Shown: positions 51-63,811 of the stretch, in pieces
Numbering within the stretch: position 1 is the first letter of the stretch
How the letters are laid out: the number at the start of each line of letters is the position of its first letter
Assembly: GCA_034687125.1 (NCBI GenBank)
Contig: JAQGBZ010000047.1
Location: 124,001-188,000 of the forward strand
Direction: 5' to 3'
Length of the DNA: 64,000 nt
Origin: Neelides folsomi
Taxonomy: Eukaryota; Arthropoda; Collembola; Neelipleona; Neelidae
Translations under genes and position numbers: made by a program
The notes under the pieces: model-generated
Database searches by the model: none
Told to the model about the DNA's origin: nothing
Seen by the model: the letters and a program-made list of their open reading frames with translations, nothing else

Positions 51-3000
51 CCGATGTTGTCGACCAAAGTGAGGAGTTCGCCGTACTCCGTCCGAGCTTC
101 CAAATTCCGTGCAAAGATTCCGAAGGCGGAGGAGGGATCAATTTCTATCCGGAGTTGAAGTTCTTCTCCAAGTCCCACCACCGACGCGTCTTGACCATTC
201 CGCATTACAATCCTCATTCGAACATTGGGAGTTGGAGCCGTGTTGGTCACGATGTTCGTCCCAGTCGGTCGAAATGGCACACTGTGAAAAACTCTTCATT
301 AAATACTACTCAAATCTCCTACTCGGGGAATCAAAGGATTGATGACAATTTTGTGAATAATATATAATTTAGTGGCTATCTCTTTTAGATCATCCGGTTC
401 AACAAATATTTGCTCCAATCCGCTTTCTCATCTCCCCGAGAGCCCTTTTAGATGATGAGTTCTACTGGGCCTCGAGGGTGCTTTAAATATGTAAATATCC
501 CTATCAGACTCACAGAAGAAGAACCAAAACCTCTTACAAATTCTTCCCTATTAAATATTCAAAGTTGGATAGATCAACTTTTTTACTCGCTCAAACTTTT
601 ATTCAATTTCTCTCACCGCTCCTCGTATTAACTTCATAACTTCATTTCTCATCTAGATTAAAATTTCCATATATTGAATGGTCCATTATTCCATATAATA
701 TAACTTATCAATTTTGATAGAAGTATAAAACTGCTTATATATTTACGTATTCCACACTTACTAAAAGTAGATATCATAGGTATAAGGATTAAGGTCATAT
801 CATAAACATTTCCGCCCTCAACCTTCAAACCCAATGATGGTGAAGAGGATCAACATTTGATGAACTGAAATTGACCATCCGGTTTGAAAAATATCGGGGA
901 TAAGTTTTGGACCTCTTGGAGAAGCAATAAGATGAAAGGGGATATTTATATATATATATTGTATAGTTCCAATATGTGAAATCTGAAGAGTCCATCACCC
1001 TCCTAAATCCCTATGATAGAGAAGTCAAAAGGACAGATTAGATTTATTGGATCCAGCGACCCATCCAATTCACACGGCCCTCATAACTTCTCCATTCCAA
1101 AACAAAACATATCGCGCCCCATCCTTTCGCCCTTACAAAGGGCTTCAAGACTGATCAAATGATAATGTCCCTCTGATTTATGGATCTTATTTTATTACCT
1201 TACAGGATTTCATGTGGAGTGGAAGTTGTTTAGACCTTAATAAATTTGTACACAAATAGCAATCAACGTCCTTTGGTTTGCTATTTCGGTATTTGAGGGG
1301 GGAAAGGGTTTATGGCCACCTTTATGTTCCTTTTAATCAACTTCCACCTAGCCAATGGCTCACACAGATGGACCTAAAATAAATTGCCCAATCATTTACT
1401 CATCAACCCCACAACGTCACAACTTTCCAACAAAAGCAGTACATTTGGACATTGAGGGACGTTGGTGGTTGATCATTGCCCAACATGGAAATGTATTTTT
1501 TGCCCTCAAATGATGATGGAAATTGACCGGAAGTGTAACTCTCTTTTTTGCAGAATGTGTATGATTTGGATAATGGTAACGGAAGTTGATTGTTCCTGGA
1601 CAATGTCCTTCCGGTCTAATTGGCAGGTGACTCACGTGACTGAGATGCCGCCGCCCTCATGGTCTCTGGATCCGGGACCTCCGTTAGGTGCATAGGACAC
1701 GGTCTGGTCATTGGCATCAAAGGAGCATTCAACCCTCACGGTTTTGTCCGACTCTTGCATGATCACCGGATTTTGCTGGATCACTACGTGGTTCACATAT
1801 CGCCCTCGACCCTGCACAATCAATCAAAATAATAATTAAAATAAATTCCAATCAAAGGAATCATCCATCCCCCCATTTTATGAACCCCCGCCCCATTGGA
1901 TTTATTTAGGAGTCAGAGGAGCAGAAATGGAATAAATCCGAACCCGCAGACGCCCATTTGCTTTCTTGTGCCCATAAATAACACTTTCCTTTTTCCTCCA
2001 TCCAAGAAGGGAAATTTAGTAACAAAGGGAGTAAATAACATAATTCTGGGCGGTTTGATTATAAGCTGGAACTTCCCCAGCAGTTGTTGGTTATTAAACA
2101 AGAGCTCCTTGGGAGAGTCATTATGAATGTTGGGTGGGATGAGGGATGGCTGATAAAAGGAGTTCGCCGAGTGTGTTGGATTGCCCTATCTGTTAGGCTA
2201 AAGGTAATAACTTCAATTTTCGAGCACTCCGTAAATTCCCCGGGTAATGTAGCAGGGAAGATTGGAAGTCCTTGCCTGTTGAAGTGTTCCGCACTGAGTT
2301 CCCAAAGAAATCCTCAAAACGACTTGACTTCGATCTCCGCCCATTTCAAAGCAGGACTGAGGATTCCCCGTCGCAAACACCCGCCCAGCAAAAGGAGTCC
2401 CGAAATTAATCGTCACCATCATGTCTGAAGGCGTGCAATCCACGCGAACTATTAATGACACAAAAGTCGGATTATCAGAATGAATGGTCCCATACATCCA
2501 AATTAACTACATCATTATCAAATATTTAGCAAGTGGAATTTTAACTTTAATCCAAATATCCAGTAATAGCATTCATAAATATGGATTTGAATAAATTGTA
2601 AGCTGAGTGTTGAAATGAATTGTAATAATAGCGACCGTTGTTGCAGGCCCCTCTTTCGCCGTAGAAAAAATCCGGATCGGGTATCAGTGTTTGTCCCGCT
2701 CCTGTCGAGTGCGTGTCGTCTGAAGAGAGCAGACATTCTCGACGATAGGCGTGGAAGGAGAAAGCCCGACATGGGAAGTCTTGTTCAGTGTCACAGGCCC
2801 GTCGACAATCCTCTCCGTTGTACATACGAGGAATGAACTTGTCAGCCACGGGCAAGTATCGTCCGGGAGTGTCCGAATACTCGCAATGCGGTGGAGCTAA
2901 AATCCACAAAATCCGTCACTTTCATTTGTAAAGAGAAAAAGGGGTCCTTGCCTGGGGCGCATTCGTTCTCCATGTAATCAACGTCAGGACCAGTTGCTTT

Positions 3001-6000
3001 CCTAAAGCTCTCAGGCCGCGTTCGTCTCGTCTCGCTGCTAAGTTTACAAAGACGATCTCGACCATAATAAGTGATGGATCTGGAAATAAATTCAAAATTT
3101 TAATAATAAACAAAATATTCAAAATCTTATTTAATTGAGAAATGTAAGTGTATATTGTAATACAATAGTAATTTTAATATAATGTCAAAATGAATTTATT
3201 TTACCTGCAAGGTCCACGTGGAGCACGAAGACATTCATCTTGGCATTGTCTTCTGTTGTAAATATTCCGAATTTCCAAATCCCCAGGCCCAACGAGTTCA
3301 TGTTCCGGCACGCGAGTGAAAGTCCAAAGCTTTCCACAGGCCCTTTCTGAAATAAACGTTCATTGATCTCTGTGATTTTCAAATGGAAATGAATGATTGA
3401 CCTCTTAGGCAAATCTTTTCAAAATGAATGAGGTCGGCCGAGGGATGGAGAAGGGAAGAATCCGCTTCTGAAGATCTGTCTAAACTGTAACATCTTTGAC
3501 CGTTGCTTCTGAGTGGTTCAATGGACACGGCAAGGCATCTGTCTCTTAAATGTTCGCATTCCTTCAGGCATTCCCCAGTCACCCCGACGTCGGAACGAGT
3601 TGGAATCGCCTCTCTATTAAACAAAATAAATTATTAAAAAATTCATGTTTCTCATTTATTTATTGATTAATTTAATTTTTAATAATTTAATTAAGTGAAT
3701 GTTTCATGTGTAATAGTTTGTTTCTATTTACTTTCTTGCTCCGTTGTAAGTATGGCCCATGACTTTTTCATACGTGACCGTGTAGCGGCACCTGTACGGC
3801 GTGAGATCAGGATCCAAGTAGTTGCCCGGTTCTTGGCTTCCCGGGTAGCTAGATGGAGGATATGGTTCCCGACTCGGGAAAGAGTCCCTTGTGGGGGCAA
3901 AGGGGTCTCTCGCTGCTGTAGGATATTGGTAATACGGATCCCGACTCGGATAAGGTTCTCGGTCCCTCGTGAAGGGATCTCTGTCTCGCCCTCCCGGGTA
4001 ATCTCGGTCCCTGGTGGGATATGGATCTCGGATCCCCCCGGGGTATCTGTCTCTTGTGTAAGGATCTCGAGCCGAAGATGGAAACGGTTCCCTTATGGTC
4101 GGATATGGCTCTCGACTTGATGGCGGGTAAGGGTCGCGGCTCGTTGGCGGGTAGGGTCTCGGATCCGAAGGGTATGGCTCTGGTCCGGGTGGATAAGGTC
4201 TTTGTTCGCCCGTGTAAGCCCCGCCTGGGATGTTCCTTGGGTCGCATTCTCTCTCCGAGTAGACGGCTCCAGGTTGGGCTTGGAAAGCGTTGGGTCCAGC
4301 CGCTCCTGCTGCGTCTCCGCTCAGCAAACAGATGCTGTTACTCACGCTCTGAGTCCCTTGCTAAAAATACAAATCCTCAACTGTTCTTCACCACAATGTG
4401 AATCTCACCGGAGTAAGGAAGGAATAGGAACGGCAGTTGAAGTCACGTTCCTTGTCGCAGGCTCGTTGGCAAATTCCGTCGTTCACGGCTGGCTCCGCTT
4501 TGTCCACGTAGATAAGATATCTGTCCCGTTGTTGGTTCTTGTAATTGCATTTCCGGGACTCTGTATTTAAATAAAATCCTTACATTAAACAATAAACATA
4601 AACAATGAAGTAATATTACTCAATTGAGTACTAAACTAAATATTGGAGTAAATAATTAACAAAAGACTGAGGTAAATGTTGAATTAAATATTGAATTAAA
4701 TAGGTGTGGGTTTAATTCGTAATGGAATTGATTTGGGTGGCGTGATTGTGGTTACGTGGGGCGCATTGATTCTCCAGGTAATCGGAGTCGGGGGCGGCGA
4801 TGAATCCTCTTGGTTGAGTGAATCTGTCTTCTGTGCTCAGACGACATTCCTTCTTTTTCCACTCGTAAGATGCAGAACGGCAGATGAACCTTCGTTCTTG
4901 CAAACACCGATCCTCGCATTCTGTTTTCTTCACGTCACGATAAACCTCTCGGTCAAACCCGCGTAGTTGAAAGTTCGGAATTCGTTCAAATGTCCATAAA
5001 AGCCCACATCCTCCGCCTTAATAATTAACAACATGCAAATTATCCCATGAATAACCAAAATTATATTTTGCTCATCTTCAGCAATTTACATATTTCCAAG
5101 AATTACATTTAAAATTAAAAAGTAATAAGTAATAAAAAAATACCTTTGAGGCAAATGCCTTCAAAATATGCCACTCCGGAGGATCTTCTCAAATCATAGC
5201 GAACCTCGTCATTTCCAAATTCCAAGGCCGAACATTCATTCCGATTGTAGTCGAGATTGAACGCGTGGCATTTGACATCACTTTCGCATCTCTTTGCACA
5301 TCTGTCCGAAATGCCCCGAGCCGCATCTCGATATAGGAGATAACTATGTCCGCGGTCCAATTCGTATCCAGACACCTTTTCATAAGTCATCCGTCCAAAG
5401 TGACATCGGCCGACTGTTTACCAAACAATCCTTTTATTATTTCAATTCATCAAAATGGATATTTTAATCCCCAAGTTTTCAACCAACTCAACCAATGAAC
5501 AAACCATAGATTTTATCCACCATACAAGTATCAGTTGTCACGAGCTCATAAAATATTTACAAAGTAATATCATTTAGGTATCTATATTCTACAAAGCCAT
5601 ATAAAGTACATATACATATCCATTTATCATATCATAGTATATTATCATTATTATTTCTACATAGGAAATACCCATGTAGGTAATACACGTAGTTAAATAA
5701 ATTATTTAGGAGCAATATGGATAAGAATTAGAGCTATTATGTAAGAAAGAGAATGAAGAAACTTGTATAGTTTTTTTACTCTGCGTGGCTGTGTTCCCAG
5801 GCCCAGGATGTCTGTCTGTAATTGCATTGCTGCTGAATCCTGTACTCGGCCCTGTGCGATCCGCAATTGGCCCTGAGCTCGGTCCAACTTGCACATTTTT
5901 GCAATTCCGCTCAAAGTAAATCGTTCCCGGTCGTTTTTGAACTGCTTCGTCTCCTCCAGAAGCTGAAATAAAAAATAAAAAAGTGAGCCCAGGTGGGTGG

Positions 6001-9000
6001 CCACCCAAACATCCAACCTACCTTTGTCGTCTCCTGAGATGAAGCATTGTGAAGCGGGGCCGTAGAAGGAATACGATCGACACACGAAATCCCGGTGAGT
6101 GTTGCACCGCTGTTCGCACTCTGTCTCACTCCCAACACTTGCAATCACCGTGTCCAGGTAACGAGGATGGGAATCTCCAATGTTATCGAAAGTGCACCGC
6201 TTGTCAGCTTAAAAAATCAAAAACATCACTACTACACACTCTAAATAATACATTAGTTAATAATTAAAGTAATTACAATTTCATTAATATTTAAATTACA
6301 ATTGGACCCAATTTACAATAAATCAAATATAATAATTCCAATATAAACCGATATTGGTTAAGTGGAAATACCAATTTTATACAAGTGTATACTATACCTA
6401 ATATACCATACGTTTTAAATAGGTGTACATAAAATGCATGGCATTTATTGGTATTTATATTTAATTTATTTAAATTTATTTCATTTAGGCTATATGATTT
6501 AATTTACATAATATCGAATTTCCATTTAAATTAGTATTTAACAATTAAAAAAGCATTTTACGTTCAATGCATTGATTTTCCAAGTATTCGATGTGCATTG
6601 GAGCTTCCACAAAGTCATTAGGACGAGTTCTTCGATCTTCCCGACTTAGACGGCATTCCGTAGTTTGTGTATGGTACTCAGCGGATTTGCATACAAACCG
6701 TGTTTCGGCCAGACATCGTTCCTCGCAATCTCTCCTGCTTGGAACATGGTGAAGGACGAGATCGTCATGACCGCGGAGTTCCCTGGCCGGTCGTCGTTCA
6801 AAAGCCCAAGCTCGCCCTCGACATCCGCGCGTATTCCCTCGAAGGCAAATCTTCTCAAAGTAATTTTGACCGTCCCGCCTTGTGAGTTCTTCTCCGCGTC
6901 CTTGAGTATTCCGGTCAAGTTTGAAACATCGCATGGCCGAGTGGTCGACGAGAAAAGAGGGACAGTCGGCACCCGCATCCCGACAACGCTCCACGCACTC
7001 GATTGTCACTCCAGGGGCTGTGGCTGCAAGGGTGATCGCTTCCTGCTTAGCTGTTCTTAGGAAATGACCTGTGACCTTTTCAAAAGTGAACAGCCCGCCC
7101 TCGCAATGATCTGAAAGACATTGAAAAATTAAAACGTTTTTTATCCAACTTCTTTCCGATTTGATTCATTGGATTCATTTTATTCATCTTGGATGAAAAG
7201 GTTTGGGAGTTAAAAAGGTCAAACGGTTAACAAAGGAAGACTTAGATATTTAAACAGGATTTATTTTCTTGGAGTGTCGTCGTAAATAAAAGGCCTTACT
7301 TATAGAGCATTGTTTTTCCGAAAACACAGCACCCCTTTTATGGGGAAGCGGAGCTCCCATGAGGCTCACAGAATCATCGGCACTCAGGTAACATCGATTT
7401 TCATCTGCTGCAAAGGATGTGGATCTACATGTGAACGTCCTCGCCTGCGTTCAAACAAACTTTTGTTTTTTGTGCAAATAACGCATAGTAGGTGATAGGC
7501 TTTCATATACCGGAGGGAGTCAAATCTATTTATATAAAGATTATAAAGGGAAAGAGATTCGGAAATCATTGAGACTCGAGGACGTTAAATGAACGAGTAG
7601 AGGAAATTAAATTGGGAAAGTTTTTTTTTATTAAATGCCCTCACGTGATCACACAGCGACTCGCAGTCTTCTCTGGACGCCGCAAATTGAAGGTCGTCCA
7701 TTGAGATCACAGACACGTCTTGTCTTGCAGCGTACCGACAATCGGGGAGTTCTGAATTATATATTCAACCAAGTTAAATTATTAATTAACTTAAATCTGC
7801 TTTTTATCTTAAAATGGTTAAATGCAATGAATGGGCGATTGAATGTTCAATTTGTTAAATTACGCTTCACGCATTGATTTTCCAAATAGTCGACGGCAAT
7901 TCCCGGCTGTCTTCTAAACGCACTCGGTTGAGTTCTCCTATCTTCTCGACTTAGCCGGCAAATCTTTAAAGACTCGTCATACTCCGCAGACCTGTCAATT
8001 AAATACAATGAAATGGGAAACTAAAATAACTTGATTCAGATAATCGAAATAAATTTAACAGAATTGACATAATAAATTTAATTAATTATTTAAAATGAAT
8101 TATTGAGATTGTATTTAGAAGAAACAATACAAGGCAAATATTTAAAATAGGATAAACTTATTTCTTTTATTTCTTAACCTGCAGGCGAAGTCTGTTTCGA
8201 GAAGGCATAATTTCTCACATTCAACTTTGGATTGAACGCCTCGTTCTTCTTTGTCGTCAAACCCGTCCAGAAATGCCCCTAGAACACGTTCAAAAGACCA
8301 AAGACGATCTCCACACGCTTGTTGGAAATTTGGAACTGAGGAAAGGTGAGGGAAAATTAATTCGATCCACTTAAACTAAGATAATTAATAATAATATTTG
8401 AATTTTGAATCGTTATTAAATTAAAACTAGAATTTACCTCCGCGAAAACAAACTTTTTCAAAGTAATTGGTCCTCGGATCCTCTCTAAGTTTGTCTCGAC
8501 GACCGACGGAGTCTCGGTCATTCGAATCGCATCTTGATTTGTCATAATCTTAAGAGGATAAAATGAATCAGTTTAATTTTCCTTCAAAGTCTTCAATTTC
8601 GTTAAATTCTTTTAAAACCGGGCCTCATTTTTGAAGTAAAATGGCATCTTATAGTTTCTAAACACAATCTAGTCGAATCTCTCAAGATCATAAGGTAATA
8701 TTTAACCCAACAATTAAATCTAATTTCAATATGAAATGAGTTTCACATAAAATAAAATACATAGTCGTCAATACATATAAGTAGAGTAAAATCCTAATTA
8801 AGTGTAAATAATCACTTTGTGACTCGAAATGCTTTCTCTTCATCATAATTTTAATAAAACTACATATGTAGTAATAATAAAACAAACTGGTGTAACGATA
8901 CGGTTAAATGAATTCGTTAGTTTTTCTATGTACATTCAATAATTCGCTGTTTAAAGTTCCTCACTGATTGCGATAAGAAAATAATTGAAAAAATAAGGAA

Positions 9001-9844
9001 CTTTATGTAAATACAAAGGTCCTTATTCGACTTCCTATCTAAACTGGGCCCCTTAAAAGTGTTTTTCCATAGTTTTGCCCTAGTTGTATATGTAATTACA
9101 TAATTAAAAAGATTAATTGTTTAAAATATTTATAGCATTGATATGGAACGTGAAGTCAAAAAACGGTGAATGCCACATTAAAGAGCTTTAAATTCTGTAT
9201 AGTATATTATAAAATGAAATGAATCGCTCGGTGTGGTATATAATATATTTTTTAATTTCATGCATTAAAATACATTTCAAATGGTGTAGTGACCCTCACG
9301 GGATGATTTTTGATTGGCGAAAGAGGCGTGAAGTCAATATAAACGTTGAATTTCCTAAATCCTTATACATCTCTTATATAAAGAAAATATAAAGAAAATC
9401 TCTCGGTGTATACATGCCTAAAACCTTAGTTGATTCGGACCCAATTATGCCCAAAGTTAAATAAGGACCTTTGTATTAGTGAGGAAGAGGAAAATAAATT
9501 AAAAATCTTACCAACGGTGAATGCTTTGCAAGTTGTGCTCTGTCGGCAAACTGCAGTGCAATCCCTCGTTACTGCCGCACCAGGCTGATGAAGAAGTCCC
9601 TGTGATTCCGACTCCGACATTGCCATTCCCGTTGTCTTCTCGTACGTCTCAACGCCTCCGAAACATTGAGCTAAATCCAAACAAAAATATAAAATCATCC
9701 CAATCGTTTCACATGATAAAACCTCTTCATGTTTCACATTTTAATTAAAAGTGTCAATTAGATAATTGAATTACCTCCGACTCCTCCGCTTTTCTGAAGA
9801 AGGATCCCAAATATGAAGAAAAACGACGAAAGTTCCCGCAACAT
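51..9844 (-). CDS. NompA/NOAH-like apical extracellular matrix protein (12 PAN domains + ZP domain), 3' end cut by window edge
   Basis: Exons: 9775-9844, 9512-9670, 8438-8548, 8179-8335, 7864-7991, 7645-7751, 7300-7444, 6562-7110, 6022-6207, 5780-5962 (donor could be 5763), 5144-5413, 4756-5016, 4409-4560, 3732-4360, 3402-3613, 3205-3346, 2952-3079, 2636-2896, 2276-2448, 1636-1811, 51-281; all phases agree, about 1476 residues so far. The first exon encodes a start Met and a hydrophobic signal peptide (FFFIFGILL). Twelve cysteine-rich PAN/Apple modules follow (residues about 24-1283), with repeated endings such as NYFEKICLRG and YLENQC. A ZP-N region starts near 1284 with four cysteines (VDC, QSC, TQC, VEC). 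The rest of the ZP domain, a cleavage site and a membrane anchor should lie beyond position 1. PAN-ZP proteins of this type (Drosophila NompA, nematode NOAH-1/2) form extracellular links between cuticle and epidermis or sensory dendrites. That role is inferred here; the family assignment is firm, one-to-one orthology is not. Confidence 0.88.
2636..9670 (-). repeat. Four tandem A-B-C PAN triplets within the NompA/NOAH-like gene
   Basis: Three PAN subtypes recur in fixed order. Type A has a YEKVTG-like opening and ends FEKICLRG. Type B has LWTFER and ends YLENQCAP. Type C opens C-x-Y/F, has a YL(D/I) motif and ends FxERxC. Triplet 1 is exons 7300-9670, triplet 2 is 5780-7110, triplet 3 runs from 5413 to about 4230, and triplet 4 from about 3800 to 2636. 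Nearly every module boundary is a phase-1 intron, so modules could be duplicated without breaking the frame. Two junctions lack an intron: A/B of triplet 2, fused in one exon, and C/A between triplets 3 and 4, fused through the proline-rich linker exon. Confidence 0.8.
3798..4203 (-). repeat. Proline/arginine/tyrosine-rich repeat linker inside the PAN-ZP protein
   Basis: About 135 codons of exon 3732-4360 encode degenerate repeats built on R-D/E-P-Y/F-P units (for example RDPYP, REPYP, RDPFA). They lie between PAN 9 and PAN 10, that is between triplets 3 and 4. The DNA is correspondingly repetitive. Low-complexity Pro/Tyr linkers are common in cuticle-matrix proteins and may be extended or cross-linked; that is inference. 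A shorter Gly/Pro/Ser linker follows PAN 6, between triplets 2 and 3. Confidence 0.85.
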
Positions 9845-14909: not shown

Positions 14910-16240
14910 ATGGAAGAAGGCAAATATTCCGATCGGCTCATTCACGGACTTCCCACGAGCTTTCTCACCTATGGAAAAACCATCGACGACAATTTGATGG
15001 ACTGTAAATATCTTCTGCTCATGATACCAGGTGATTTTTTAATATTGTTAATTCTAAACTCATTTTTTCAATTTAAAGGTTCAAAAGACTATAAATCAAA
15101 TTAGTCATAATTGTTTGTTGATCATTTTTATAACATAGAATTGTATGTTGATCATTGGGAGCTTAATCATTAAAAATATTTTTAATCTAAAGGAATTGAA
15201 AGTTTATAATTATTGGAATTAATTATTGGATGGATGTTTGAAGGCAATCCGGGGCAGATCGAGGCGTATCGCGTGTTTTTGTCAGAGCTTTACCAAGATC
15301 TTCGATCTCAATTTCCACATCTCTCCATTCCGGTTTGGGGAATTACTCACGGAGGACATCAAGAAGGACAAACAAATGTGGCTGGTCCAAACCTCAAGGG
15401 TATTTTCCCCCTTTAAAATTAGTATTTAATTAACTTTGGATAAAAAATGTAATATATTAATAATTTTAAAAAAATGAGTCTTTCAATTATGAAATTTTAA
15501 AAATTGAGGCGAATGATAATGAATTTTTTTCAGAATTTCCCAACTTGTATGATCTCGAGGGCCAAATCGAACATAAAATGGAGTTTGTTCGTCAAATCTT
15601 GCCCCCTCATGCTAAAATCTTGCTTTTGGCTCATTCCATCGGTGCCAAGATGTCAATCGAGTTGGTGAAGAGAAACGAACGATTTGAAAAACAGCTCCTT
15701 CGCGGGTTTTTGCTTTTTCCGACCATAGAGCGAATGCGGGAAACTCCGAATGGGAAATCCCTCACACCGAAGCTGAGTCTCCAGCGGATCATCTTCCTCC
15801 TTCTGGCTCCCGTCTTCTGGATGCCTAAATTCCTCCATCGTCTTGTGCTTAAATGCATCTTGTGGCCTTCAGCACCCCCGCCATGCGTCCTCGACTCCGG
15901 CCTCAATCTGTTCAATAAAAACATCCTGGAACGGGTGTTGTGGTTGGCCAAGGCGGAAATGGACCAAGTGGTTGATCTGGACGTGGAGGGGATTGCAACC
16001 CACAAGAGCAAATTGTTCTTCTACTGCGGGACCGAAGACCATTGGGCTCCGCTCCACTACTTGGCTGACATGCTCCAGGTCTTGCCGACCCTTGAGTATG
16101 AAGTTTGCTCTCATGGGATCAACCACGCGTTCGTGATCGAGTCCTCGTCCCTCATGGCAAAAATCCTGAAACCCAAGTTGGCCCAAACCATCCATCAACA
16201 CCTGATCCCCCTTGGAAAGTTAATGGGAAGGGATGAATGA
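14910..16240 (+). CDS. LDAH: Lipid droplet-associated hydrolase (LDAH / C2orf43 family)
   Basis: Three coding exons: 14910-15030, 15244-15399 and 15534-16240, both introns phase 1. The product is 327 residues, close to the roughly 325 of human LDAH. The alpha/beta-hydrolase features are visible: an oxyanion-side motif MIPGNPGQIEAY near residue 38, the nucleophile elbow AHSIGA with Ser127, Asp261 in GTEDHWAP, and His290 in GINHAFV. A hydrophobic stretch after about residue 150 (ILFLLLAPVFW-like) is where the family associates with lipid droplets. Vertebrate and fly members sit on lipid droplets and affect sterol ester or triglyceride turnover; the substrate is debated. The start ATG at 14910 follows an acceptor at 14852. 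The gene stands alone between minus-strand genes. Confidence 0.93.
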
Positions 16241-20273: not shown

Positions 20274-23200
20274 TCACTGGTGCTCCCCGTCCAACGCGTC
20301 CAAATACTTTTGTTCCACAAACAGCGGAACCACCTTGTGTCTGAAAACAAAAAATAAATTGATCCTTAAGAGGAAATAAAACTTCCCAAGAAGAGGGAAA
20401 ATAAAACCCCAAGAGGGGAAATTGAATTGGGGCAAAGAAGTATGTGAGGGGATTTGGGTCCTTTTACCGTATAGGAAGCAGGAGGAACAAAGTAATGGGG
20501 AAAATCATCTTGACGTAGGCGATGGGGAAGAAGCCGACGAAGCACATGGCAGTCAACTGCATCACCTGACTAGCCGTAAATTGATGAATCTTCCGCTGTG
20601 GAACCCGCCGGATGTAATGGTTCGGTGGGTAGGCCGCCTTTAACATTTAAAACATTCCCATTTAAACAACCAATTAAACATTATTTAAATATCCCTTAAA
20701 TTGAACCCCAAACTCCTGGTTTTATTAAACTCGTTTTGAATCTCAATTATATACATATAAGTATTTCATAATAATTAAGCCACAATAATTCCTCAGGTAA
20801 TTCGTTCTTACCTGTTCCATGAAGAGGAGTGTGATCCTTTCGAACATTTGATTCCCGTTGAGTGCCGTAACTGCCATGTAAAGGAAGAGGCCGTCGAGAA
20901 CGGCGATCGGTATGTGTTTCAACGGGTAGGGCAGAAGGAAGATGGAGAGTCCGATCAGAATGTGGGAAAAGATACCCGTCAAACGCGTCTCCCGAACTCG
21001 CACAATTCTTAAGGAAATTAAAAAGTTGTGAAAACTTTCACAAAACTTTTCTCCTTCAATATTATTCAAAATTGATGATTATATATAAAAATATTTTCGA
21101 GTCATTTGTCCATAAGGAAAATGTTGAGATTCATAATTGAATAAGAAAACTATGATGTAATTGGTTAAATAAACCTACTAATACTTAAAATTAAAATACT
21201 TGTCTACTCCAATGAAGTGGAATTGGAAGCAGAGCAATTAAATGGGCATTAAATATTAAATCCTATTTACTTTCTAGTCAATATTTATAAAGGTTTTTGA
21301 GTAAATTCGCCAAGCATGCGAATTCTTTTTAACTGTGAATCTTTGAGGAGGACCGTGAAAGAGAATCTCATTAAAACCTCTTTTGTGGTCCCAAGTCGAC
21401 CCCAGAGCCTTGTGGGGGAGAAATGGTGAATAAATAATGAAAATCTCCGAGTTCCTTCCTCCACGGGCCATTGGGAATGTTGGTCATAAGAAGTGAAATG
21501 ATAAGTTTGATAAGCGGTGAGGAATTAGGGGAGGGAAGGTCGGGCATTTTGTGTAATCTCCCCGGCTTTGTCCCTCACTTAATGACTCAACTTTTCTTTA
21601 ACTAATACTCTTGTAACTATGATATCTAATATGTACAATACATGTCTCGTATCAATACCTATATATAATATTTAATAAACATGGTTCTTATTACATTTCG
21701 TAGACGTGGCCTTGGTCGACTCTTTCTTCCACGTCAGCCAGGCTCCGCATATGGAGCGGGGAGTGCGGGAGCGTCGCGTGCATCCAAGGCATCGTGAACA
21801 TCGATAACCCGGCGTTGATCAAAGCGACAATAAGGAGATCCCAATGGTAGGCTGGCCCTTTCTTCAGCCTGTTAAAATTATAGTTCACGTCAACTACTTA
21901 ATTAATAATTACATTACTATGTTTAGCTCAATAGCCGCTTTTAGTACATTATATTTAGCACATGTCGCAATATTAAATACAAGATTTCGAATATTTATCA
22001 TATTTAGCATATATTGAAATGTGGTAAGTCGTTGTATTTAGTATGAGGTTTCTTTTTTGATATCTTGGTGAACTTATACTCGAGTATAAGTTCAAGATGG
22101 TAAATATATACTTGAGGTTAAGTTTGAAGTGGATAAGTTGTAAAGTTTTATCCTTACTTGTTACATGGATTGTTGACCATCGCACTTGTTATATTTTGAT
22201 CCATGAAGATGAGGAGCGAAAGAGAAAAGCCGAGTCCGATGGAGCAGAAAATGGCAGTCCAAGAAAGCTTCTGCATGCTGGCAATTTGAAAAATTGTATG
22301 GTCGTCATATCTGAACCGCTCAACTGTTAAGACACAAAAATTCCGTCAACAAAGCACTTTACGACTTGCCTATTTCCTTATTTATTTCCTCGTATTTACG
22401 TGTACAACATATTATCCCGCTTTCATTCTCTTTTCATTTTCATTTCTTTTTTATCCTTTATGGACCAACTTACGCGTCACAGCTTGGAAAAGGTATGAGC
22501 CAATGACGCTGAGCGTCAACACTGCAACCGGGAGCGAATAATCGGCCAATGCCTCGCGCTTACTTGCTTGCAAATACGGCCTGTAAAATGATGAAGGTAT
22601 GAGACCTGTAGCTCGGACATTTATTTATTTATATTTCATCTCTTCATCGGACGTGGGAAAAACCAATTACGTTTTATTGAAGTTGTAAAGTGAAACACCG
22701 AGCCAGAGAGTTCCCAACATGAGGAATAAAAAGAGAATGGAGGAGTCGCGCTCGCATGGACCGTACGCCGGGTCCCAAAATGACGAGTTGGCCAACGTCC
22801 CAGTTTTCCCCATATTGGCAAGCCAAGTGACTGGAGGAGACTCACAATTAATAAAAACAAATGACCAATTGACTCAATTCTTACCTGGATCTGTTTGATT
22901 CATCGCGCTCGTCATGCTTTTATCCAAATCAAAAGCTTTACAATTTGGGTTGTTGTAATTGTCCTGAAAGTCTGGAAATGATGATGGATGAGGATTAGAA
23001 TCCGAGATTGGGTGATAATTAAATATCATTGTGGTGTGGAGAATTGAATGTTAAATAACTTTAAATGACTTGCGAAAATGAAACCACGAACAATTGATCA
23101 TGGTTCAAGTCCAAGGATGGTAAAATATACATGGTTCAAGTCAATGAAATAATAAATATAAAAATATCAAATAAGCAATCATTAACATTAAGGTTTAAAT

Positions 23201-26200
23201 AAAAAATTAATTATATAAAATATTTAAAAGAAATTCCTTACTTTTGATTGTATCTCTCAGAGCGTCAACGGAGAAAGCGATGGAGATGAAAAGAGCAAAT
23301 ATTTCTTCTGTTGACCTTGTGGACCATCGCATGAGCCGGGAAACGTCTAGGAAAGCGTAGAGAGCCGTGAAGAGCGAACTCCAAAGCCCCACACAGCAAT
23401 ACAAGGCTTCAAAGTCAACCTCAAAGTCTTCGGCCAGAGCGTAAACAACTAATTATGGGAAATAAGAAAATAATTAATCTAAAATTCAAAGAGTTTTAGT
23501 TCCTGTCCATTAGTTAAAAAGTTAAAATGGCCTTATGCATGATTTAGATGTGTATTTGAATTTGGATGAAGTGGGTAGATAATTATTTAATTTGTTATTA
23601 AGACATTGAAGGCATTGATGAGTCATTTGAAGAAATTAAGGTCACTTACTTTTGACAAAGAGACAAAGAGGTGCCGTGGTGAGAAGGATGTTAAGCGGCT
23701 GACCGGAGAGAACGACGTAAACGAGCTCGCCGAGTGTTTGCCCCACAATCACCTTCTTCACATCTGGGAAGGAGAAAGGGTCATTTGAGGTCATTTATGC
23801 ATTTGAACCCTCACCGATGATTCCCTGTGTGGTGTGATCGTTGAGGACTCCGAAGGCAATGGACGGAAGGATACAAGCAAAGTAGAGGAAAAACGTCGTG
23901 GAGATTGTCTTCTGAATTGTCTTGTAGCCGACCACTCCATCCCGATAATCAGAGATGTAATGGGGGAGCCGTCGCTTTAAATCTTCTTTGATCCCCGTTC
24001 CAAAGCTGAACCAATTCTCCTTCTGCAACCACCAAACCCAATGAACCCAACGACCTCGAAATAGCCATGAAAGGAACACTAAATTATGCCAATGGGAATT
24101 TACGCGCTGAGTGCCGGTTTGAATCGGCGGTTCCCCTGACGGCGGCTCGGGGGCAGTTTGCTGTTGCGAGAGATCCTGAGCTTGTTTGAGGATCAGTCGC
24201 TTAAACTCTTCCTCTGTTTGGGTCTCGAGTAGCGATTGGCGAAATTCCATGTCGCAAAAAATGGTGGAAAAAGTCCGACCTGTCTCAAGAGCATTTTTTG
24301 TCCCTTTCTGGATGTCAAAAGGGCCAAAAAGGAAATTAATATTTTGCCAATTATAATATAGTAGTATAGGTATATGGAAATATGGATCCATATTAATTTA
24401 TGAGAAAATGGACGTTTTGTAAAAGTAGCGGGTTTTAAGGACTTTCGCAATGTTTAGGATTTAGGCTGGTTTTATGGATTGGTTAGGTTATTGTGAGGTT
24501 TTTATTAATTAATTTTTAAATTTTGCATAAATAATTACATACCTCCTTGCTCGGACAGAGGACGAGTATGAAAAGCCGAACCTCGTGGCTCGTCCGTCCA
24601 AAATTTGCAGGGTGTTTGAGTCTGGCAATGGCGACGTGACGTCTCTGGAGCGACGGCAGGTTGCAGCTGGAAAACCATTTTTATTATTACCCAACTCGTT
24701 ACGTAGAAATTTAAAAATAATGAGGGCTCATTTCTCACATGGCACAAATCCAAGACTGGTCGTAGTCGAAGGAGACGCCTTCGCTCCCCGTCGTCCCTTG
24801 TATTGTCCGCGCCAAGAGATGAACTGCTCAATAAATTACGCCTTTGTACTTTTCACAAATAATTTTCTTCCTTGGGGAAAAAACTCACCCAGAGAAAGTG
24901 TTCCTAATAAATAAAACCTTGGAATGAAATCCCTAAATTCCCTCCGCTTCTTGTCAAATCATTATTTCCCAAATTCCAAGTTAAGTAATAATGGGGATTA
25001 ATTGATTTACACATCTATACAGCTTGTAGTGATTTAATGAGGTGAAATTAATGGAAGTGAACGCCCAGGGATCCTTGGGGATCTTAATGGCCGAAACAAC
25101 CCAAAATGTCTCCAATGTTGTGTTTGGGCCAAAGTTGGGGAAAAGTTGGTCTGTGCAGGTGAGAGATGTTCTCAAGGAGAGGTGAATGATTAATTCGGAG
25201 CTCTTAATTAATTAAAGAAATTAAAAGTAAAGGAATTTATTCCGGATAGAAGAGACTTTTAATTTCTCCAACTTTCCCGACTCTCGAGATTGAATGAACA
25301 AAGTTTCCCAAGGACTTTTCTCCAAACTCCCCCAAACATTCCAAATATTCGCCAGATGAGGGGTTGGGAAGATCACAACTTTTTATTTCCTTTTTTCCAA
25401 CAGGGTTCAAGGTGAATTTCTCTCATGTTAATTAATCATCCCAAATGGTAATCATATTCCACCTCGACTTTGCTAAATTAGAAAGGAGAAAACAATGGGA
25501 AGTTCAACCAAAGTCAGTTCATCATCTTCAAAATCCATTTTTTCTCAAATACAAACCTGTATTTACCGGGTTGGATTCACCTTGGTTAGAACTTTTAAAA
25601 TGGTTTCGGAACAACAGCCGTCTTGAATTGAATATTGACCTGGCGAATGGCCAAAGGTCTTTTTCGGTAATGTGGAATAAAAGTATTATTGCAGATTTGG
25701 AAAACTTTTAAAGTTTCTCCAATGGGACGACAAGGGAAAGTCTCAAAAGTTCTTTGAATGGAATTCTTTCGCCCGTGGGAGGAAAAACTCTTCAAAAACA
25801 TTCTTAAATAATATTATTATATATACTATAGTATACTGTATATAAAGTATACTATAATATATATTGTATAATATGTATGTACATATTATACATATAAGTA
25901 AGTACATTATTAAATATCTAGTAGTAATATATAATCTACGTACATAATAATTAATCATTTTACTTAACATGACTCATATTCTACATGTTTTGTAAGATGT
26001 AATAACATAGTATATTAGCATATTAATGCTGTATGTAATGTACCATATTTCAGAACATGTGTATATGATATGCGATATGTATTTGTATGTGTGGGTGTTT
26101 ATGTGTAGGTAATTAAGGAATATGAATGAATGCACATGGGTGGCTATTAGCCTGATTTAATATTGAATTTAATAGGGATGTAAAAGTGGAGGATTAGAAT

Positions 26201-60865: not shown

Positions 60866-61998
60866 ATGGCTCAAATCCTCATCGGTGAGTGAAGGAGGTC
60901 AACCCAGGTCAACCAACTCATTTTTTGACATTCTTTCCAGGAAACTGCCTTTTGGGTCTCCTCATTTTCTTTTCCTGTCTTCGTTTTTGCCTTCCATATT
61001 TTGTCACCGTCGATGCCCATGCCGAAGAGTGCTTCTTCGACAAAGTTCAAAATGGAACCAAAATGAGTAAGTTGAAAGCATTTAGAAGTGTTTTAAACTC
61101 CCAGGAGTGGATCTTTACCACAGCCAGCAATTATATGATTATGCCATCAACTTAAGATAATTAAATGTCATGTGACTGTGTATGTTCATAAATACCTGAC
61201 TGGGCCATTTTAACACTTACATTTAAAAAAGTTGGCTCAGATAGTTAAAGACAATTTTATCTTCTCAATAATTATTTTTTTGACATTTTGGAGTTTTCCC
61301 ATGTCAAGTTGGGTCATAATCTCAGAATAAATTTTGACATTTAATCATGGTCTTTTGACAGGTTTGACATTTGAAGTCATTGAAGGCGGTTTTTTGGATA
61401 TTGATGTTCGAGTTCATGGACCAGATAACGAAGAAATCATTTCAAAGGAACGGGAGAGCAATGGGAAGATTACTTTTGCGGCTGGGAAAACTGGAGCTTA
61501 CACTTACTGCTTCAGTAACAAAATGTCCACGATGACACCAAAGGGAGTCATGTTCTCGATGGATATTGGCGAAACTCATGCTGCAGTTACTCAAGCCGAT
61601 GGCGAAAGTAAAACATTTTTGCACATAAGTTTCAATGAAATTAATTTAATTAATTATCAATCCTTTATGAAGGGCTTTTGACATTATATAACATATTATG
61701 TAAATACAAGGGAATTTTTACAATTATGAAAGGTCAACGGCTAATCTTAATTTAATTGGATTTAGATCATCCCAACAAACTGGCTGAAATGATTAAGGAA
61801 CTCTCTACGGCCCTTGTGGGTGTTAAACACGAGCAGGAGTATATGGAAGTCCGTGACAAGATTCATCGAAAAATCAACGAGTCGACGAATACTCGAGTTG
61901 TTATGTGGTCATTCTTTGAGGCGGTCGTGTTAGTCGCTATGACCGTAGGCCAAGTCTATTACTTGAAAAGGTTCTTTGAAGTTCGGCGTGTTGTGTAA
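60866..61998 (+). CDS. TMED2: p24-family cargo receptor TMED2 (p24 beta)
   Basis: Four exons: 60866-60884, 60941-61066, 61362-61607, 61766-61998, all introns phase 1. The product is 207 residues (human 201). A signal peptide occupies about 1-27, then a GOLD domain with the invariant DAHAEECFF and [13 protein letters not shown] motifs; their cysteines form the family disulphide. A coiled region [19 protein letters not shown] follows, a membrane helix at about 177-197, and the tail [10 protein letters not shown], identical to vertebrates. That tail binds COPI and COPII coats, so the protein cycles between ER and Golgi, sorting GPI-anchored and other cargo as part of p24 hetero-oligomers. The first exon encodes only six codons. 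Identification is certain. Confidence 0.98.
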
Positions 61999-62288: not shown

Positions 62289-63811
62289 TCATTTCTTTTT
62301 TTCCTTCGTAGGAGGAAGAAAACAGTTTTCTCCATTTTCATCGCAATTATCGTAGGGCTTGACACGTGGGTCATCGAATCGATCTGGATGAACACAGGCA
62401 CAGCGGACGTGCTTATTTTGTTCACGAAATTGGTGAGGATATCCATCCCATTCTCGATTCACTCCGCCGCTACAATACATTTTAAGAATTAATTAAATGT
62501 TATTTTATAAAATTATAATTTAAATCTTGTTCCAAATGAGTCGATTTCATGTATGGTAAAAGCTGATTCAATTTTAAACACGAACGTTGGATAATTTTAT
62601 ATTGATATTTTTTCTAATTCAATTCAATTATAGTGTAAAATATTTATTTTTATTAAATACCTTTGACCCGAACACCACAAACGCGATCCAGTCGCTGCTT
62701 TCCATTCAACATTGCACAGCGGAAATTGATTCTTTAAGTCTTCATCTTTTTTGGCATCAACTTTGGCAGCTTTTAAGGATTTGTGATAAAATTCCATAGC
62801 TTTGGTTTCTTTCCCAGCAGAGTCGAAAAATGTTCCAATGTGATAACCTGACCAAAATAAAAATGACATATGTGTTACCTTCTTGATAATGAAAATGAAC
62901 AAAGATTTATTTAAAATTTCATTTTAAAGACTAACACCATTTGATAAGTTCACTTACCAATATGTTTGTACGTCTTGTGGTCTTTATAAAACTTAATCCA
63001 TGTATCTATTCCAATGAAACCATCAGCTTCGAGATCAGTCAAATCACTGGTTAAGCCTTTATCATCAAATTGGCCTGATATAAAAGCTTTCGTTCCATCT
63101 TTACCTACGTAATTAAATGTAATTAAATTAATATTGAGCCAAAGAATTCCATTAGGAATTTAGGATGTATTTGATTTATTAAAATGGAATATTTAAATAT
63201 TTACCAATGAAGCCGAAATAATTTCCTCCTTTGCCATAGTAATTCGCTCCATCACTAACATCAAAAACGTGACCGAGGATGACTAGATAGAGCTTTCCCC
63301 CTTCTTTGTACATGATGTCGTCATCGGTCATCAATTTGAGAGTTTCTTGAGATGTGTCTGAATGCAAGTCTTTTTTCCCCTCTCGAGTCTTCTCTTGGGT
63401 TTTCTCTTGAGACTTCGGCTTATGGAAATATTCCCCAAATTTCGTGAGTCCAGGAATATAATCTTCGAGTGCGATAACAGTCTTGTGTACTTCTTTAGAA
63501 ATGTCAAAGTTAAATACCTTTTTTTCTTTGATCAAAAAAGCTACAACGACTATCATCACAATGAAGGCAATATTGCGCCTAAAAACCCCTGCATAGTTCC
63601 TCGCATTCCCTTGATGCCCAATGTTCACCCCCGGCCCAGGCCCAGGCCCCACTTCATTTTCTCCGTCCTTAAAAGAAGATAAAATTCCCACTGATAAATA
63701 TTAATTGGTAAATAAGATGGATAATTGTAAAATTGTAAATTATTATACATTATAATGAAATCAGAATAGAAAAAATGCCATGTGTTTACACGCCGAGATA
63801 AAACTTACCAT
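62289..63811 (-). CDS. CYB5D2: Neuferricin (cytochrome b5 domain-containing protein 2)
   Basis: Five exons: 63809-63811 (start codon only), 63205-63667, 62958-63104, 62661-62847, 62289-62469, giving 326 residues. An N-terminal Gly/Pro stretch precedes a membrane helix at about 33-47 (NIAFIVMIVVVAFLI), and a charged linker follows. The cytochrome b5/MAPR-type domain (about 114-205) has LVILGHVFDVSDG and YYGKGGNYFGFIG. The C-terminal neuferricin module has FPLCNVEW, GSRLWCSGQ, SGGVNREWDGYP and VRCACVH. The family uses tyrosine rather than paired histidine haem ligands; mammalian neuferricin is a membrane-associated or secreted haem protein linked to neurogenesis and cytochrome P450 support. Human protein is 264 residues; the extra length is N-terminal. 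The ATG ends exon 1 exactly (AAATG|gtaagt); the acceptor ttcttttaag at 63668 joins it in frame. Confidence 0.9.

Follow-up and report, generated by a model that had tools for sequence, protein, structure and literature searches.

A predicted PAN-ZP gene of Neelides folsomi with four A-B-C triplets of PAN modules before its ZP module

Results

We analysed a 64,000-nucleotide stretch of the genome of the collembolan Neelides folsomi (assembly GCA_034687125.1, contig JAQGBZ010000047.1, positions 124,001 to 188,000 of the forward strand; hereafter the window), at the left edge of which lies a minus-strand gene for a PAN-ZP protein whose twelve PAN modules are arranged as four tandem A-B-C triplets. 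Three-frame reading, with splice sites placed by frame and consensus, gave a spliced model of 21 exons running from 9844 to 51, the joined frame of which has no stop in 1482 codons and encodes, in this order, a signal peptide, the twelve PAN modules (A-B-C four times) and a ZP module. The gene anatomy set out here is this model from DNA. It begins at an ATG at 9844 that is followed by a hydrophobic leader; by translation and the splice model, exon 1 (9775 to 9844, minus strand) holds the start codon and signal peptide MLRELSSFFFIFGILLQKSGGVG, the latter judged by eye and by hydrophobicity. A preliminary description of this DNA had placed the array at 2636 to 9670, and these limits are correct: exon 2 starts at 9670 and the exon of the last PAN module ends at 2636. 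The gene extends beyond the left edge of the window (C47:114001-124000), where we find the end of ZP-C, a furin-type site and a likely membrane span; together with the signal peptide, and PAN modules that precede the ZP module, these features bear out the earlier naming of the product as a PAN-ZP protein.

The Pfam PAN_1 profile (curated cut-off 21.4 bits) finds 12 stretches of the spliced protein (E 3.3e-101), and when the modules were scored singly all twelve reached the cut-off, one of them (PAN A2) exactly. Scores fell by type, being 54.5-59.9 bits for B, 25.3-44.3 for C and 21.4-30.8 for A modules, and six cysteines are present in every one of the twelve. A search of solved structures with PAN B2 returned plasminogen as its sole match, and this was weak (E 0.21).

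All modules lie on the minus strand and are named here by type and triplet. The first triplet consists of PAN A1 (8439 to 9665, exons 2-3, with a 963-nucleotide intron inside; 29.5 bits for PAN_1; typed as A by leave-one-out profile), PAN B1 (7865 to 8315, exons 4-5, with a phase-2 intron after FAC; 59.9 bits) and PAN C1 (7301 to 7740, exons 6-7; 35.2 bits). The second holds PAN A2 (6836 to 7105; 21.4 bits for PAN_1 and 74.9 bits as type A by leave-one-out profile) and PAN B2 (6563 to 6823; 54.5 bits), which have exon 8 in common, followed by PAN C2 (5895 to 6196, exons 9-10; 44.0 bits). A linker of 41 residues (5406 to 5894, exons 10-11) leads into the third triplet, made up of PAN A3 (5015 to 5405, exon 11, its last codon completed in exon 12; 30.8 bits), PAN B3 (4757 to 5008, exon 12; 58.4 bits) and PAN C3 (4238 to 4549, exons 13-14; 25.3 bits). 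Between this and the fourth lies a 149-residue linker rich in Pro, Arg, Tyr and Asp, with 11 (D/E)P(Y/F) motifs (3791 to 4237, exon 14), and the array is completed by PAN A4 (3345 to 3790, exons 14-15, its last codon completed in exon 16; 22.7 bits), PAN B4 (2953 to 3338, exons 16-17, the latter ending at a GC donor; 56.3 bits) and PAN C4 (2637 to 2885, exon 18; 44.3 bits), which directly adjoins the ZP module. The spacing of the triplets is accordingly uneven, the C1-A2 joint having 2 residues, C2-A3 41 and C3-A4 149. A divergent PAN gene elsewhere in the assembly (C491:11018-12795) also has low-complexity stretches rich in Arg, Asp, Pro and Tyr near its PAN modules.

That the modules fall into three types was seen in several ways. 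Mean identity among the twelve aligned modules was 36.9% within type and 21.1% between types, a contrast equalled in 5 of 20,000 shuffles of the type labels, and grouping by triplet instead gave a negative difference. In a maximum-likelihood tree, for which the program warned of long branches, A, B and C split as three sides (support 100/99, 79/93 and 62/20, respectively) with two type changes, the minimum; none of 200 shuffles reached so low a number. Profiles built without the module being tested typed 12/12 correctly. These results, with the PAN_1 scores and cysteines, uphold the strict A-B-C order, four times over, that had been read by eye in the preliminary description, and its expectation that modules would group by type; the parallel branching within A, B and C that it also predicted was neither seen nor contradicted at the resolution of this tree. 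The terminal signatures that it had proposed for the types were partly too strict. FEKICLRG occurs in PAN A2 only (A1 FEKVCFRG, A3 FEGICLKG, A4 FEKICLRE), and FxERxC is too narrow for the C modules (C1 FSEKQC, C2 YFERNC, C3 YSEREC, C4 YGERGAC).

Introns mark most of the module boundaries. An intron is present at nine of the eleven inter-module joints, all nine being in phase 1, and phase 1 is also found for the intron before PAN A1 and for that between PAN C4 and the ZP module. Such agreement in phase is characteristic of modules able to multiply by exon duplication. Inside PAN B4 a phase-2 intron after GPC occupies the same place as the intron of PAN B1. Two of the 20 introns, 17 and 19, are of the GC-AG class with GCAAGG donors (beside 2952 and 2276, minus strand).

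The in-window part of the ZP module spans 51 to 2636 (minus strand); its first codon is interrupted by the intron between exons 18 and 19, the latter ending at a GC donor, and the module continues through exons 20-21. It is 37% identical over 255 columns to the ZP module of a sister gene, at locus C238, which itself scores 32.7 bits for Zona_pellucida (cut-off 24.6). When the window ZP module was compared with solved structures, the sole match was an antibody chain (E 0.36). To the left of the window, ZP-C ends as CPRDPNVFPG...FCQDLCQP and is followed by VRCQGNLESFGRRRRS with a furin-type site (RRRR); further left is a hydrophobic span, succeeded by basic residues, which by its hydrophobicity is the likely membrane span. 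Eight cysteines are present in the window ZP; compared with the ten kept in another sister gene, at locus C5, it lacks the fifth and seventh. The same two are missing from the C238 ZP and from the C1 ZP as far as it was read. This suggests that two ZP subtypes exist among the PAN-ZP genes of one genome. The C5 gene with its ten ZP cysteines is located at C5:368647-371406.

These sister genes were found by searching the assembly of the window (75.1 Mb, 840 contigs) with PAN_1 up to E 10, which gave matches in at least 21 places, at least 10 of them on the window gene's contig and within the window gene. Three further loci (C238, C1 and C5; the second is not to be confused with the module) could be read as PAN-ZP genes with one PAN triplet each: in C238, A-B-C precedes ZP, RRKRS and a hydrophobic span, and the A/B, B/C and C/ZP joints have introns in phase 1; C1 encodes A-B-C, ZP, RRKRR and a span; and C5 encodes three PANs, ZP, RRRRR and a span. 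Eight of the nine sister modules passed the PAN_1 cut-off, the exception being the A module of C238 (20.3 bits against 21.4). Profiles trained on the window also typed eight of nine as their position predicts, with the C module of locus C1 typed narrowly (33.9 bits versus 30.0 for B). PAN B1, PAN B4 and the B module of locus C1 share a phase-2 intron placed immediately behind their fourth cysteine. In a tree of 21 modules (12 from the window and nine from the sister genes), which has long branches and bootstrap values that had not settled, A formed one group (96/96), the C module of locus C1 fell among the B modules, and the B module of locus C1 joined the C module of C5 beside them. The divergent PAN gene at C491 is a fifth locus and was left out of the trees; a further candidate, C411 (E 2.8), was dropped, as it gave no profile match under 0.05.

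Identity among the four window triplets is 33-41%, against 30-36% with the triplet of C238. The means are 37.1% within the window and 33.1% to C238, a difference of 4.1 points (bootstrap 0.7-7.8); the mean to the triplets of C1 and C5 is 29.2%. With triplets concatenated, the four from the window grouped as a clade in 28% of bootstrap trees, and this clade was neither recovered nor rejected (approximately unbiased test, p 0.30). We also scanned the exon of PAN A2 and B2 against viral contig and genome contig collections, with no animal collection among them, and found no relative.

Elsewhere in the window are an exon of a lipid-droplet-associated hydrolase (15470-16234, plus strand; PF10230, 150.9 bits), exons of a bicarbonate transporter (20749-24397, minus strand; PF00955, 61.6 and 91.2 bits), an emp24/p24 (GOLD) exon (61331-61678, plus strand; 67.6 bits) and a cytochrome-b5-like match that is under its cut-off (63185-63700, minus strand; 17.2 bits). 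The assembly also includes a mitochondrial contig (15,157 bases, code 5), where, with genes named by eye, nad2-cox1-cox2-atp6-cox3-nad3 lie together, nad6-cob shares their strand, and the opposite strand carries nad1, nad4 and nad5; we take this order to be close to the arthropod ground pattern.

Discussion

We propose, with a probability of about 0.8, that the window holds one gene for a secreted, membrane-released apical matrix protein, with four A-B-C triplets that were multiplied early in the history of its family. The A-B-C unit most likely predates the parting of the window gene from its sister genes, because these carry such triplets themselves, their modules are typed largely as position predicts and introns are held in common. 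The preliminary description had postulated an ancestral A-B-C triplet, which gains support from the single triplet in each of C238, C1 and C5. The repetition of the triplet in the window gene is probably old; the simplest reading of the identities is that multiplication either coincided with the split from C238 or came soon after it.

Several of our observations weigh against this proposal. The gene model draws on DNA alone, with splice sites picked by frame and consensus and two introns that have GC donors, and furin-type site and span come from separate exons, those that would connect them being outside the model. The window ZP module stays under the Pfam cut-offs, with 19.5 of the 24.7 bits needed for ZP-N and 20 of the 27 needed for CUT_N, and a whole-genome search for the ZP family, a search that is blind to introns, lists five places, none of which is in the window gene or in the three sister genes. 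As to the module types, support for C was weak (62/20), the 21-module tree needs three changes each for B and C rather than one, and the first module of C5 was not typed as A, though it is a PAN; with its ends corrected it gave 8.2 bits for A, 12.9 for B and 14.9 for C. The literature adds that PANs are dispensable for matrix formation in Drosophila Trynity (PMC12758534) and that Caenorhabditis elegans LET-653 without its PANs is partly functional (PMC4970718), and because of this a key role for the twelve PANs is not assured.

The array could also be divided between two or more genes, with triplets 1-2 in a secreted six-PAN protein, ended by a stop beyond the exon 10 sequence, and a separate six-PAN-ZP gene behind it, or it could give alternative transcripts with fewer triplets. 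The likeliest spot for a gene break is intron 10 (366 nucleotides), between triplets 2 and 3: the frame of exon 10 continues to a stop about 75 nucleotides past the chosen donor, and three ATGs with short hydrophobic stretches lie inside the intron. However, hydrophobic ATG frames also occur in six of the 19 other introns (2, 4, 6, 8, 19 and 20), an in-frame stop and no start codon is found ahead of exon 11, the frame is kept at every joint, with intron 10 in phase 1, and exon 14 holds the end of PAN C3, the 149-residue linker and the start of PAN A4 in one frame, so joining triplets 3 and 4. We consider such a division highly doubtful. A recent expansion from one triplet, in line with the lineage-specific expansion that the preliminary description envisaged, would require fast divergence to have made the copies look old. 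The window gene is the only one of the four PAN-ZP genes read that is expanded, and its triplets are slightly closer mutually than to C238 (37.1 versus 33.1%), but at 33-41% identity they are about as diverged as are the ZP modules of the window gene and C238 (37%), and the intron inside B is present in PAN B1 and B4 and absent from B2 and B3. The copies are nearly as far from each other as from C238, and because this would place the multiplication near to the C238 split, we regard a recent expansion as unlikely and that part of the earlier account as unsupported.

A further possibility, which concerns the identity of this one gene, is that it is the NompA orthologue, with a role in the cap or sheath by which sensory cilia are held to the cuticle and of which NompA is a part (PMC2882365, PMC6031363). 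The architecture is the same, and the two ZP cysteines that are missing from the window gene and kept in C5 invite comparison with the Cys5-Cys7 bridge, which is stated to be lost in NompA (PMC7456536). Set against this, C238 and C1 lack the same two cysteines, and the window gene is not singled out by them. We consider orthology possible, but on balance we incline against it. The window ZP itself looks more NompA-like than NOAH-like, because its fifth and seventh cysteines are missing and NOAH-1 and NOAH-2 have ten (PMC5769628).

Returning to a single gene for a released matrix protein, we suggest a working scheme, in which polymerisation, cleavage and matrix contact are inferred from its relatives. 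The protein would be delivered to the apical surface, where cleavage at RRRR would release the ectodomain and the ZP module could polymerise at the interface of cell and cuticle. The PAN arm, some 1,260 residues in length and interrupted by two linkers, one long and one short, might then reach outward and make repeated contacts with neighbouring matrix. Its twelve modules may lengthen a tether between cuticle and cell, as the preliminary description proposed, or may simply add sites for binding. Trynity is cleaved by furin, and its ZP is both necessary and sufficient for matrix in cultured cells (PMC12758534); LET-653 attaches to a fibrillar luminal matrix through its two PANs and to the apical-membrane matrix through its ZP (PMC4970718). 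The A-B-C triplet would be the evolutionary unit of such an arm, single before the ZP module in the sister genes and multiplied to four in the window gene early in the family.

A wider suggestion, to which we give slightly less than even chances, is that the triplet is a single super-module inherited throughout the PAN-ZP family, whose members would differ by the number of triplets before the ZP module (one versus four). If this is true, proteins that anchor cuticle would gain or lose arm length and binding valency three modules at a time, and any published count not divisible by three would reflect under-counted weak A modules, or losses. It would help to explain why PAN counts differ within the family, and array length would be of interest in NompA-like tethers. 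It also predicts that, in arthropod and nematode genomes, PANs before a ZP module come in threes with their types kept. Bounded by phase-1 introns, A-B-C offers a clean evolutionary unit for proteins that tie cells to cuticle; the accepted view of how PAN-ZP proteins work is left unchanged.

NompA is described as having about five PANs, and the preliminary description gave about five to six for NompA and NOAH proteins. For C. elegans NOAH-1 the PANs are given as "several", with at least four implied by "the last four" (PMC5769628), and the available parts of seven further papers (PMC4883753, PMC7544507, PMC2063515, PMC8777253, PMC11398461, PMC7712855, PMC4550925) do not state PAN numbers. Our literature search, outside which most subscription papers fell, found in the parts available no description of a PAN triplet or of a ZP protein with twelve PANs.

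The C238, C1 and C5 genes share with the window gene PANs followed by ZP, a basic site for cleavage and a hydrophobic span, and have one triplet each against its four. Drosophila NompA has the same succession of signal peptide, PANs, ZP and span (PMC5769628), and the Cys5-Cys7 pair of ZP-C is absent from the window gene as it is from NompA (PMC7456536); a location in sensory organs is known for NompA. C. elegans NOAH-1 and NOAH-2 resemble it in having several PANs, a ZP, a tetrabasic site and a span, and differ in the ten cysteines of their ZP, against eight (PMC5769628). Drosophila Trynity, Nyobe, Neyo and Morpheyus likewise carry PANs before ZP and a span, and Trynity, whose ZP and span are preceded by three PANs (PMC6303098, PMC12758534), matches one A-B-C unit in number, where the window gene has twelve PANs. 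We place the window gene, with its four triplets, in the known family of PAN-ZP matrix proteins to which NompA, NOAH and Trynity belong.

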